From assembly GCF_014529625.1 (NCBI RefSeq), contig NZ_CP076039.1, forward strand, positions 3,596,001 through 3,660,000: a stretch of DNA of 64,000 nucleotides, in the 5' to 3' direction. Shown here piece by piece: positions 57,070-60,047 of the stretch. The notes beneath the pieces were generated by a model that worked only from the letters and a program-made list of their open reading frames with translations, was not told the DNA's origin and made no database searches. The stretch comes from Candidatus Pelagisphaera phototrophica. Its GTDB lineage: Bacteria; Verrucomicrobiota; Verrucomicrobiia; Opitutales; Opitutaceae. Within the stretch, counting starts at the first letter, position 1; the number at the start of each line of letters is the position of its first letter. The translations under genes and the position numbers were made by a program.

Positions 57070-57603
57070 CTAGTAAAAGGCTCTGGCCAGAGGATCCTTG
57101 TCTTTAGACCATTCCCTGAAAGCCAACGTGAAAGGATGCCAACGGAAGCTAGGTTGTTTCTTTAATTCATCCACATCTTCCCAAAAGTCGGCGTGGGGAA
57201 CGCGTAGCCCACCGAGCCACTGCCAAAGTTCTCTACGATTTGCAGCTTTTCTTAGCTCCAGCTCGTAAGGAATATAATCCATCAACCCCATATTCCACTG
57301 AAAGCGGATATCTCCAAGATTCATGATATTCGCTCTTTGATAAAGGGCAATTTGTTCCCACTCTCCCTTGCTTACTGAGTCAAAATTATGATCACGAAAC
57401 ACTCTACCGAGCAGTTCTGAGAACTCATCATCGCGAGCATTTGCAAGCGATGCCTGGTACAAATTCACGTTCCGTTGTTGCCTTGCTTGCGAGGTGGCTA
57501 CTTCTGAGTTTTGTCTTAGCTCAATAATAAGGAAAACAAGGCCGGCTAAAACGGCGACGTTACTAAGTACTGTAGTGAGAATTTGGACTGAATTGGATTT
57601 CAC
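57070..57603 (-). CDS. Membrane-anchored hypothetical protein (paralogue 1)
   Basis: 177 residues: one N-terminal helix (VLSNVAVLAGLVFLIIELRQ) then a soluble helical domain rich in Trp and Asp (SVSKGEWEQIALYQRANIMN; RWHPFTLAFREWSKDKDP). Clearly related to the next gene upstream (see the shared ALS/AT-S-Q-x-R-Q-x-R...F-S-x-L-L-x-R, and the E-W-S-x-(D/N)-K-D end). I do not know a function for this family. Confidence 0.65.
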   Translation of the reverse strand: MKSNSVQILTTVLSNVAVLAGLVFLIIELRQNSEVATSQARQQRNVNLYQASLANARDDEFSELLGRVFRDHNFDSVSKGEWEQIALYQRANIMNLGDIRFQWNMGLMDYIPYELELRKAANRRELWQWLGGLRVPHADFWEDVDELKKQPSFRWHPFTLAFREWSKDKDPLARAFY

Positions 57604-57668
57604 AATGACTCCCGCATTAATGGAGACATCTACTCAGCACAAATTCTTATTCCGATTTCTCTATGTGC

Positions 57669-58214
57669 CTAAAACACTTTTGGCGTACCTAGGCCCTTGT
57701 TAGGGCTGTCCTTATTCGCAGACCATTCGGCAAATTGAATAGCCAGTGCTGAAGGTGTAAAGTCATCGGTACTCATGTATGCATCTATAGCTGCTGCAAA
57801 TTCTGGATTAGGCTCGGAGACGTTCAACCATTTCCAAATTGGAAGACGACTAGCGGCCATAGAGATGCTGAAAAGGTAAACGCTTTCATCAAGTAGCCCC
57901 TTTTTATATTGGAAAAAGACATCTTCAAGTCGGACAGACCGAGCCAGCTCATAATGGACCAGCTGATTCCACTCTTTGTTTGTAACAGAATCAAAGTCGC
58001 CATCATTCAGTGCCCGAGCTAAGAGGTCACTGAAGATTTCATCCTGGGCGATAGCCGAGTATTCATCAATAATGCTAAGGGTTCTCTCCTGACGTATTTG
58101 AGAAAGAGCGATGGCGGAATTTTGTTTAATTTCAAAGATAAGGAATACCAGTCCTACAAGGACCCCGACGTTGGCAGTTGCTGTACTTAATGTGATGAAG
58201 GTGTTTGTTTTCAT
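57669..58214 (-). CDS. Membrane-anchored hypothetical protein (paralogue 2)
   Basis: 181 residues with the same plan as paralogue 1: helix ATANVGVLVGLVFLIFEIKQ, then QNSAIALSQIRQERTLSIID, FSDLLARALNDGDFDSVTNK and FAEWSANKDSPNKGLG. The two share N-V-x-V-L-x-G-L-V-F-L-I-x-E-(L/I)-(R/K)-Q-N-S and the D-F-D-S-V-(S/T)-(K/N)-x-E-W box, so they arose by tandem duplication. The 65-base gap suggests one operon. Role unknown; divergent from the ubiquitin-domain gene. Confidence 0.65.
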   Translation of the reverse strand: MKTNTFITLSTATANVGVLVGLVFLIFEIKQNSAIALSQIRQERTLSIIDEYSAIAQDEIFSDLLARALNDGDFDSVTNKEWNQLVHYELARSVRLEDVFFQYKKGLLDESVYLFSISMAASRLPIWKWLNVSEPNPEFAAAIDAYMSTDDFTPSALAIQFAEWSANKDSPNKGLGTPKVF

Positions 58215-58296
58215 AATGCGGCATTAATTAAGAATAAGCCGCATTCAGAGGAAGTACTAAGTGGCACGTCCGGCAGCGTTTTGATACGGAATGACC

Positions 58297-58343
58297 TTAG
58301 GTTGCCATTACTTTTTGCAAGAAATCCTGATAGGTTGATCAGG
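58297..58343 (+). repeat. Conserved upstream element, copy A (linear box plus hairpin)
   Basis: TTAGGTTGCCATTACTTTTT GCAAGAAA, then the hairpin CCTGAT-AGGTTG-ATCAGG. Copy B at 59141-59188 differs by one base in the first 28 bases and keeps the hairpin with a different loop. It starts 82 bases before the ubiquitin-domain gene. Likely a shared regulatory or 5'-UTR element. Confidence 0.7.
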
Positions 58344-58378
58344 TAGACACTAGGGCCAGGATTTGCTAAATTAGCAGT

Positions 58379-59119
58379 ATGAAAAAGCTTTTAATGGCCG
58401 TTGTGGTATCTTCCTTACTTCTCTCCACGTCGTATGGAATGCAGGTTTTTGTGAAGACACCTACTGGAAAAACAGTCACGCTGGAAGTTGAGCCTTCTGA
58501 CTCAATTGAGAACGTTAAGGCTAAAATTCAGGATAAAGAAGGAATAGCCCCTGACATGCAGTGGTTAGTCTTCGCAGGGAATTATGTAAGAGACGGGATG
58601 ACGCTGTCAGATCACAATATCCAAAAAGAGTCAACACTACACCTACTACAGCGAGTGGCTGGCTTCCACCAAGATACCATCAACATGCAAACTTTCTCTC
58701 CCAACCAGGGTGGTGTGGTAGAGTCTTATAGCACAAACGTTACGATGGATACTTCGGATAATATCAACGTTCTGCAGGGCTACTTCAACATAGATCCTCA
58801 TAATGATCTGTTTTCAGTTACCTATTCGGGGTCTACAACCAAAACTTTCAATTCAGGATCCTATTTTGAATTTTCTGATCTGGACGTATCCCTTGGCGGC
58901 CAACTTACGGGTGTTACGATATCCGATGACACTACGGGTCTATCTTTCGCGAACTCATTTACACAGGAATCCATCACTGTCAATTTTACTGGTGACATTG
59001 CCTCTGGGGGTGCTTTCACGGTTAACGCAATTATCGATGTCCCCGACACAGGGTCTACGGCAGCTCTTCTTGGAGTGAGTGTAGCGGCTCTAGCCTTTGC
59101 TAGGCGGAGATTAGGGTAG
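58379..59119 (+). CDS. Secreted ubiquitin-domain protein with VPDSG/PEP-CTERM-type sorting tail
   Basis: 246 residues in four parts. (1) Signal peptide 1-20 ([19 protein letters not shown]), predicted to be cut right before ubiquitin Met1. (2) Residues 21-96, a full ubiquitin domain: [76 protein letters not shown]; by my count 57 of 76 residues equal human ubiquitin. Lys6, 11, 27, 29, 33 and 63 are kept; Lys48 is Asn; the hydrophobic patch is L8P, I44V, V70L; the end is AGF in place of RGG, so E1-type conjugation is not expected. (3) A Ser/Thr/Asn-rich beta domain, about 97-220. (4) [20 protein letters not shown] then ARRRLG, an exosortase-type anchor. So probably exported and surface-attached. 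Intact frame, bacterial codon use, inside the tRNA-His island. Function unknown. Confidence 0.93.
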
Positions 59120-59140
59120 GCGTCACTTTTGGGATATAGC

Positions 59141-59188
59141 TTAGGTAGCCATTACTTTTTGCAAGAAACCCTGGTAGCACGATCAGGG
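59141..59188 (+). repeat. Conserved upstream element, copy B
   Basis: TTAGGTAGCCATTACTTTTT GCAAGAAA, then hairpin CCCTGGT-AGCACG-ATCAGGG (7 bp, one G-U pair). It differs from copy A in the stem at a position where the pairing is kept (A-T to G-T) and in the loop, as expected for a selected RNA structure. It begins 90 bases before the next start codon, as copy A begins 82 before its own. Confidence 0.7.
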
Positions 59189-59230
59189 TGCATTTTGTTT
59201 CACTTGGTACGAGACATGCATGAGGTAAAT

Positions 59231-59410
59231 ATGATGAAGCTTTCCGCGAATCTGCTCAAAATTAGGCTCTTCGCAGTAACGATGGGCTTGCTAATCTCAG
59301 CTTCCTTGACCGAAGCCGCACTGATAGACAACGGGGGCTTCACTACCGATACCGTAACAGGTCTCGATTGGCTTGATATGTATCACACGGATGGAAATAC
59401 CTACACCAAT
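59231..59410 (+). pseudogene. N-terminal fragment of a secreted PEP-CTERM-type protein
   Basis: ATG at 59231 (GAGG ribosome-binding site 5 bases before). Signal peptide ending SASLTEA, then ALIDNGGFTTDTVTGLDWLD MYHTDGNTYTN. ALIDxGGx-T-D-T-x-T-G-L-x-W-L-D is the standard start of one family of PEP-CTERM proteins. After about 60 codons the sequence switches, in the same frame, to a sulfatase. The rest of the protein, including any sorting tail, is missing. Confidence 0.7.
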
Positions 59411-59683
59411 TGTCCGATTTGCGTCCCGGCGAGAGCGGCTCTGCAGACGGGACGCTTTATTCATCAGACCCGCAATCGGTGAAATGGTAACCCATATTCA
59501 GGACAAAAAGCGGGTTGAGGGCATCGTTTAAAATCAGCAGGTCACGAGGTCGTATCGATCAGTAAACTACTTTTTCGGTTATGTGATGATGATAATGGTT
59601 TTTTCGATGAGATCCTACCGCTTCATGTGGCTGATGCTTGGGGGATCTTAGGGCTGCTTGAGAAAAACGTGCTCGTCGTCTAA
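59411..59683 (+). pseudogene. Sulfatase fragment with stop codons
   Basis: Reads CPICVPARAALQTGRFIHQT RNR-stop-NGNPYSGQKAG-stop-GHRLKSAGHEVVSISKLLFR, then DDDNGFFDEILPLHVADAWG ILGLLEKNVLVV and a final TAA. C-P-I-C-V-P-A-R-A-A-x-x-T-G-R is the formylglycine active-site signature of type I sulfatases, and the GHRL...AGHEV-x-SI-x-KLxFR stretch follows it in choline-sulfatase-like enzymes. Two in-frame stops and both ends missing: a dead fragment, fused in frame to the preceding one. Confidence 0.72.
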
Positions 59684-60047
59684 TTTCCTGTCATTCTTCT
59701 ATTATAATCAGTGCAGACTAATGCAGCTAAATGGTATTTCATACACTTATTTACCTAGGTAAAGTATTGTCCCCTAGGCAGTAACCGATTTCGAATCCCG
59801 CTAGCCACACCATTCATCAGTTCGGAAGCGGTTTCGCAACAGAAACGAAACCCTACCTACAAGGCATCAGCCAAGATGAGGACCGGTAAACATTCGACAA
59901 GCGGTTCTGCACAAAGAAGTGAAGAGAAGATTGCGGTATCAATGAAAGCAACGCCATGAGGCGACAGCCTAGCAACTCAGCTTTTCAAGCCCACCTACAC
60001 GACAAACTGCTTGATGGTCGGTCATATGTCAGCATCCTAGCACTTGT
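59684..60047. other. Island end and intergenic region before the DUF1080 gene
   Basis: Contains the attachment-site copy of the tRNA-His 3' end (59790-59814). From 59815 to 60047 there is nothing recognisable; only short, broken frames. Confidence 0.5.
59790..59814 (+). repeat. Duplicated 3' end of tRNA-His (attR-like)
   Basis: TTCGAATCCCGCTAGCCACA CCATT, 23 of 25 bases equal to 56388-56412 (T-arm to CCA and flank of tRNA-His). Marks the far end of the island. No full tRNA is present here. Confidence 0.75.

Follow-up and report, generated by a model that had tools for sequence, protein, structure and literature searches.

The window analysed here, a stretch of 64,000 nucleotides from Candidatus Pelagisphaera phototrophica (Verrucomicrobiota), encodes a protein that very probably consists of a signal peptide, a ubiquitin domain placed first in the mature protein, a linker or ectodomain, and a C-terminal tail by which an exosortase would sort it. 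We hold it to be evenly poised that this exported ubiquitin is the working part of the protein, carried on an exchangeable C-terminal anchor and used for binding or antagonism outside the cell. The gene and its surroundings are organised as follows (positions in the window):

58379–59119, + strand: whole gene, 246 amino acids, ATG start; signal peptide, ubiquitin, linker/ectodomain, and VPDSG-CTERM tail
58379–58438, + strand: predicted signal peptide, residues 1–20 (from the sequence; same junction in 75 of 86 related frames by a simple rule)
58439–58666, + strand: ubiquitin domain, residues 21–96 (profile match, alignment, and confident model)
58667–59035, + strand: region of no recognised fold, residues 97–219, 123 residues (weak likenesses; low-confidence models)
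59036–59116, + strand: VPDSG-CTERM sorting tail, with VPDTG, a hydrophobic stretch, and ARRRLG (Pfam and NCBIfam; near-identical tails elsewhere in the genome)
58315–58344, + strand: upstream element common to VPDSG genes, with the inverted repeat CCTGAT..ATCAGG, ending 34 bases 5' of the ATG
59159–59188, + strand: the element again, in front of the next VPDSG gene, which is broken

In terms of domain structure, the main reading of the initial annotation was borne out. PF00240 matched residues 23–92 with 80 bits (cut-off, 25.4; E = 1.1e-22) over model positions 1–70 of 72, and 57 of 75 aligned residues were identical to human ubiquitin without gaps (19 of the 76 positions differ). K6, K11, K27, K29, K33, and K63 are kept and K48 is replaced by N, as had been stated; the Gly-Gly end, which had been described as lost, is lost only at G76, which is F, whereas G75 is kept. 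This F is followed by 150 more residues, so that there is no processed Gly-Gly end and conjugation should not work, as had been argued. The protein contains no Cys. Signal peptides and cleavage sites were judged by simple sequence rules: here, KK and a hydrophobic stretch precede residues 18–20 (SYG), which abut Met1 of the ubiquitin in the manner of a Sec/SPase I substrate, and cleavage would be expected directly before Met1, in agreement with the earlier proposal. The VPDTG...ARRRLG tail was also confirmed, by PF18205 (VPDSG-CTERM; 38.4 bits, cut-off 25, residues 221–245) and TIGR03778 (36.2 bits, cut-off 22, residues 221–244). The "beta-rich domain" proposed for the part in between could not be shown: in the AlphaFold model of the whole protein, the ubiquitin part reached pLDDT values of 81–97 (10-residue blocks) whereas residues 93–246 remained below 50, and residues 97–246 modelled alone again remained below 50, though some strands were drawn. 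Region 97–219 resembles other VPDSG proteins of the same genome, mostly via the tail, and its match to the PEP-CTERM protein model NF038129 (18.6 bits, tail included) was far under the cut-off of 65. The best hit of residues 97–246 in a sequence search of the PDB (E = 0.19) was taken as chance, and Rfam gave no match over 57600–59800. On the minus strand, 57070–57603 and 57669–58214 encode two small proteins that resemble each other, each with a membrane stretch at its N-terminus and without a Pfam match.

The host genome, a single contig of 4,086,264 bases (4.09 Mb), contains one PF00240 match and 34 VPDSG-CTERM places, 30 of them over the cut-off. A candidate for the exosortase proposed to sort the protein was found, as the only exosortase in the genome (PF09721, 137.5 bits); its best NCBIfam match was XrtC (TIGR04151; 275.7 bits, below the cut-off of 300), the next family reaching 115.8 bits, and by sequence it is closest to XrtC, the VPDSG-specific type. 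The window protein therefore resembles the known VPDSG-CTERM/XrtC substrates (TIGR03778, PF18205, and TIGR04151) in having a tail over the cut-off, an XrtC-like exosortase, and the common upstream element, but differs from the other VPDSG-CTERM genes of its genome, none of which encodes a ubiquitin. The surface anchoring suggested initially stands as far as its export signal, sorting tail, and matching exosortase gene are concerned; the location itself is a prediction from these.

The upstream element was found at 16 places in the genome when up to 3 mismatches were allowed, and its reversed control at none. Thirteen of these places lie 520–792 bases (that is, within 1.2 kb) before a same-strand VPDSG tail, with a chance of about 0.005 each, an enrichment that is partly circular because the pattern was derived from VPDSG loci; one of the three remaining places precedes the broken gene just 3' of the ubiquitin gene. 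VPDSG genes across the genome (e.g., at 538091–546230) have in common an upstream element with the inverted repeat CCCTGAT..ATCAGGG, and this element is likely to be a regulon signal. Because the ubiquitin gene carries both the VPDSG tail and the upstream element, it belongs to the VPDSG set, consistent with the proposed fusion to a resident sorting frame, and it is probably co-expressed with the other VPDSG genes through the common element. Both element copies fall in a 48-bp direct repeat flanking the gene (58296–58343 and 59140–59187). A mobile-element reading of this repeat was abandoned: the core of the repeat is the VPDSG upstream element, and its second copy stands in front of the next VPDSG gene. 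That gene (59216–59482) is itself broken, leading into sequence that weakly resembles an arylsulfatase (E = 0.006).

A 7.6-kb contig (L002) is 96% identical to the window along 2,009 bp, flanks included, and carries the syntenic orthologue of the ubiquitin gene, together with an intact orthologue of the broken next gene (1824–2471 of the contig) ending in a VPDTG tail. The contig belongs to a metagenome-assembled genome (MAG) titled Gammaproteobacteria NP1444, a label that we doubt because of this identity and because the MAG contains a 138.5-bit exosortase. Between the ubiquitin gene of the window and its orthologue, 16 synonymous and 17 non-synonymous changes were counted (dN/dS = 0.33; binomial p = 0.002), of which 9 and 7, respectively, fell in the ubiquitin part (dN/dS = 0.21; p = 0.004), and 1 and 5 in the signal peptide, one of the latter being a change of the start codon from ATG to GTG. 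This pattern indicates purifying selection on the ubiquitin gene. Synonymous change was more frequent in the ubiquitin part (9 of about 53) than downstream (6 of about 111; p = 0.02). When 57 genomes of relatives, the host among them, were compared, the full protein was found only in the host, and any match in five: the host, two of the 10 other members of the genus (by tails only), G053 of the same order (a ubiquitin, 63% over residues 16–91), and G055 (weak).

Ubiquitins of this exported type recur in other bacteria. Scanning of contigs with exact peptides gave 190 stretches, 161 of which were relatives, and the best 80 of these loci, which were kept, contained 86 ubiquitin frames. In 75 of the 86, a signal-peptide-like stretch ended directly before Met1, the rule being a hydrophobic stretch with small residues at −3 and −1. 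When the junction was shifted, the rule fitted 8–42 frames at 1–10 residues upstream, 0–1 at +1 to +9, and 68 at +10, where Leu8 and Gly10 satisfy the small-residue rule. Seven of the 11 non-fitting frames were in actinobacterial MAGs (L060, L064, L077, and L081), and the other four were L004 (a polyubiquitin without a signal), L022 (opening only 12 residues upstream), L058 (Thr at −1), and L062. Three of the actinobacterial MAG loci (L064, L077, and L081; two labelled Bifidobacterium breve) have tandem ubiquitin genes without a signal peptide, several of which end in NFTG or GFTG. The rule was fitted by all 15 loci that are named as a species or strain and are not labelled as MAG or uncultured: Ruminococcus albus (two), Saccharibacillus (two), Dyella (two), Cohnella, Methylolobus, Methylotenera oryzisoli, Ca. 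Aquiluna, Paracidovorax valerianellae, Cocleimonas flava, Malaciobacter halophilus, Pedobacter cryoconitis, and Flavobacterium collinsii. The Clostridiales strain NK3B98 (L015), left out of those 15, fitted it too. The rule-fitting rows bear about 14 phylum labels, although MAG labels are fallible, as in the case of L002.

Exported bacterial ubiquitin is nevertheless rare and scattered. In profile searches, which avoid the bias of the exact peptides, 13 of 387 Verrucomicrobiota genomes, including the host, had matches, and 15 of 16 places were judged by eye to have a signal peptide. The phylum of R. albus gave 5 of 398 genomes (two strong matches, one of them the search centre), that of Dyella 2 of 398 (the centre and a weak match in which no signal peptide is obvious), and that of Flavobacterium 6 of 395 (including the centre and one already known). 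Tandem, diverged ubiquitin pairs occur at L134, L139, and L178, and P. cryoconitis (L071, 5634–7033) has a tandem array of four diverged ubiquitins, each standing alone and bearing a signal peptide; such copies are a habit of conflict proteins, but equally of surface proteins generally. A phage origin was rejected, as phage records gave no match and PHROG gave no family at E = 0.01. Plasmid records gave two matches, including the mobilizable 421-kb plasmid pRUMAL01 of R. albus 7 (L205), on which an annotated "ubiquitin family protein" stands in a gene row with a dockerin protein. A scan of IMG/VR gave six loci. Three of them (L202–L204), on contigs classed as viral that may be host DNA, encode a signal peptide, ubiquitin, and a VPTMSEW..RRR tail; L199 encodes a signal peptide and a stand-alone ubiquitin with its LRLRGG end kept; and L200 and L201, which lack a signal peptide, resemble ordinary viral ubiquitin.

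The partners of these ubiquitins were highly diverse. The 98 proteins scanned matched 61 Pfam families, ubiquitin models counted, and the first 25 families listed included Autotransporter (20), Ig_3 (6), GLUG (5), SLH (3), a T9SS tail (2), VPDSG (2), and IPTL (2; 3 by NCBIfam). IPTL-CTERM exceeded the NCBIfam cut-off in L032, L035, L052, and L202 (three also exceeded that of Pfam, and L202 is the one scanned of the three tailed IMG/VR loci), and a protein from a genome of the window genome's family (L144) exceeded both the Pfam and NCBIfam cut-offs for PEP-CTERM, whereas L039 and L143 ended in a hydrophobic stretch with no model match. Three kinds of exosortase tail (VPDSG-, IPTL-, and PEP-CTERM) are thus found on exported ubiquitins, and the exosortase-sorted ubiquitin of the window is not the singular case that it had been thought to be. 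PF09721 was matched in four of six other cellular genomes with a CTERM-like-tailed ubiquitin (G423, G226, G432, and G439), but not in G430 or in G1630, the tail of which reached no model, and in one of nine genomes whose ubiquitin has no such tail. In IPTL systems, the exosortase is more divergent. All of these proteins (L144; L032, L035, L052, and L202; the autotransporter types) resemble the window protein in having a signal peptide, with ubiquitin first when mature and a tail or partner following, but their tails and partners differ and most keep the canonical face better.

To our knowledge, the BfUbb protein of Bacteroides fragilis is the sole characterised exported bacterial ubiquitin. 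Its authors describe B. fragilis as one of few bacteria with a eukaryotic-like ubiquitin, and BfUbb as having a signal peptide that ends at Met1, lacking the terminal Gly, and being toxic to some strains of B. fragilis (PMC5705921). As portrayed in these accounts (PMC3352274 and PMC5705921), BfUbb shares with the window protein cleavage directly before Met1 (predicted in the latter), the lack of a usable Gly-Gly end, and a patchy distribution among relatives, but is a free 76-amino-acid mature protein with a C-terminal Cys and no anchor. The window protein, on the other hand, has a 150-residue extension with an exosortase tail, a remodelled binding face, and no Cys. Because BfUbb combines the same N-terminal design with toxicity, and because oyster ubiquitin without its two glycines is bacteriostatic according to a review (PMC10892293), we favour by analogy, somewhat short of an even chance, a displayed antagonism or binding module, followed by a purely structural role. 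An unsystematic look near the ubiquitin gene recognised no immunity gene, which counts against this reading, as does the lack of an anchor in BfUbb.

The bacterial intracellular ubiquitin-like systems Bub and Bil act in the cytoplasm by conjugation; they share the ubiquitin fold with the window protein, which differs from them in its export signal and in the absence of a Gly-Gly end.

Conservation bears on which part of the protein does the work and on whether the domain is more than a stable fold. Among 26 partner-bearing pairs (plus six among the L071 copies) picked by hand as likely relatives, ubiquitin was better kept than the partner in 23 of 26, by more than 30 points in eight (e.g., 65/72 vs 30%, 70/72 vs 51%, and 64/72 vs 23%), and the partner was kept as well or better in three (L026/L050, L134/L145, and L022/L051). 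Synonymous distances of ubiquitin and partner disagreed in some pairs (0.02 and 0.41 in L025/L051; 0.49 and 0.17 in L026/L050; 0.31 and 1.46 in L008/L019), as if the ubiquitin cassette had been exchanged on its own. The alignment of 98 rows was reduced to 88 by removing L004, L060, L062, L064, L077, L081, L136, and rows with more than eight gaps, and to 82 by removing near-copies. Using residue lists that we take to represent the core and faces of ubiquitin, conservation in these 82 non-redundant domains was 0.94 in the core, 0.85 on the other surface, and 0.75 on a 9-residue binding face (mean 0.79 for an 11-residue face), positions 1–6 and 27–34 being excluded from the core and other surface because two search peptides came from there and inflated conservation. 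The 10 profile-found Verrucomicrobiota domains, for which these positions were included, showed the same order (0.86, 0.76, and 0.62). This order, together with the extremely varied partner domains, is what would be seen if ubiquitin were only a structural cap, a small fold of great stability that resists proteases, occupies the exposed N-terminus, and aids stability, folding, or adhesion without a ubiquitin-specific partner. However, in the seven pairs with a synonymous difference of at least 0.70, ubiquitin keeps 51, 58, 63, 64, 65, 65, and 70 of 72 residues. Most such retention seems above what the fold alone demands, an argument that is not strong because independent gains from eukaryotes would look alike. 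We regard a purely structural role as rather unlikely, if a serious contender.

A more improbable explanation is that the protein mimics eukaryotic ubiquitin toward a protist or animal, engaging ubiquitin-binding proteins or blocking conjugation, as the initial annotation had suggested. The eukaryote-like sequence agrees with it, as do reports of BfUbb inhibiting ubiquitination in vitro and becoming covalently bound to human E1 (PMC3352274). In the window protein, however, the changes concentrate on the canonical I44/K48 face: 7 of its 11 residues are changed (L8P, R42W, I44V, K48N, Q49Y, V70L, and L71Q) against 9 of 61 others (Fisher p = 0.0015), so that ordinary ubiquitin-binding proteins should bind poorly. 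A strict four-residue patch gave 3 of 4 against 13 of 68 (p = 0.03). On the 9-residue face, 7 of 9 residues are changed, compared with 9 of the 63 outside it, with a p value (0.0002) to be discounted because this face was drawn up after the changes were seen. Moreover, extracellular display would not meet cytosolic enzymes, and Gly76 is kept in only 9% of 75 aligned domains (absent in 91%), though some, such as L033, retain the full LRLRGG end. That the gene is a recent eukaryotic remnant or an assembly chimera without function, as its eukaryote-like domain and sporadic occurrence might suggest, is extremely improbable given the single-contig genome, a dN/dS below 1, the common element and sorting tail, and the syntenic orthologue with matching flanks, which already contradicts it.

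In the favoured reading of a displayed binding or antagonism module, the Sec signal peptide would be removed directly before Met1 of the ubiquitin, and the VPDTG tail would keep the protein in the inner membrane until cleavage by the XrtC-like exosortase, which would pass it to the outer surface or the exopolysaccharide. The ubiquitin domain would then be displayed outside the cell with a free N-terminus, having been expressed alongside other VPDSG proteins via the common upstream element. The domain would be the working part and the C-terminal part an exchangeable anchor, and external binding or antagonism would proceed as in BfUbb, but tethered or matrix-bound rather than freely released.

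The origin of the domain can be read in two ways. The horizontal gain from a eukaryote proposed initially survives as only one option, because signal-peptide ubiquitins carry the labels of about 14 phyla and bear three kinds of exosortase tail; the lineage may equally have acquired an already secreted bacterial ubiquitin. A tree of the ubiquitin domains, limited to 76 columns and with unsettled bootstrap values, cannot tell the two apart; it placed the window protein and L002 on one long branch (0.88) and needed three changes, not one, for the profile-found Verrucomicrobiota rows.

Ubiquitin is usually presented as a modifier that works inside eukaryotic cells. A literature search over titles and the beginnings of abstracts, with few subscription papers covered, showed, among the papers listed, none on exported bacterial ubiquitins that are sorted or have several domains, and our results suggest a so far unrecognised external use of ubiquitin in bacteria. 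We put forward, as a tentative generalisation that is more doubtful than the reading of the window protein itself, that ubiquitin is widespread among bacteria as an extracellular surface module, an N-terminal cassette that can be exchanged, has repeatedly been joined to the host's own anchor (autotransporter, S-layer, T9SS, or one of three exosortase tails), and serves as a displayed toxin or a receptor-binding head in microbial conflict. If the set can be taken at face value, ubiquitin would be used outside the cell in many bacterial phyla, without conjugation and on several unrelated anchors. This raises the question of what keeps ubiquitin so constant in the absence of E1, E2, and E3, and the target of the displayed ubiquitin would become directly testable.
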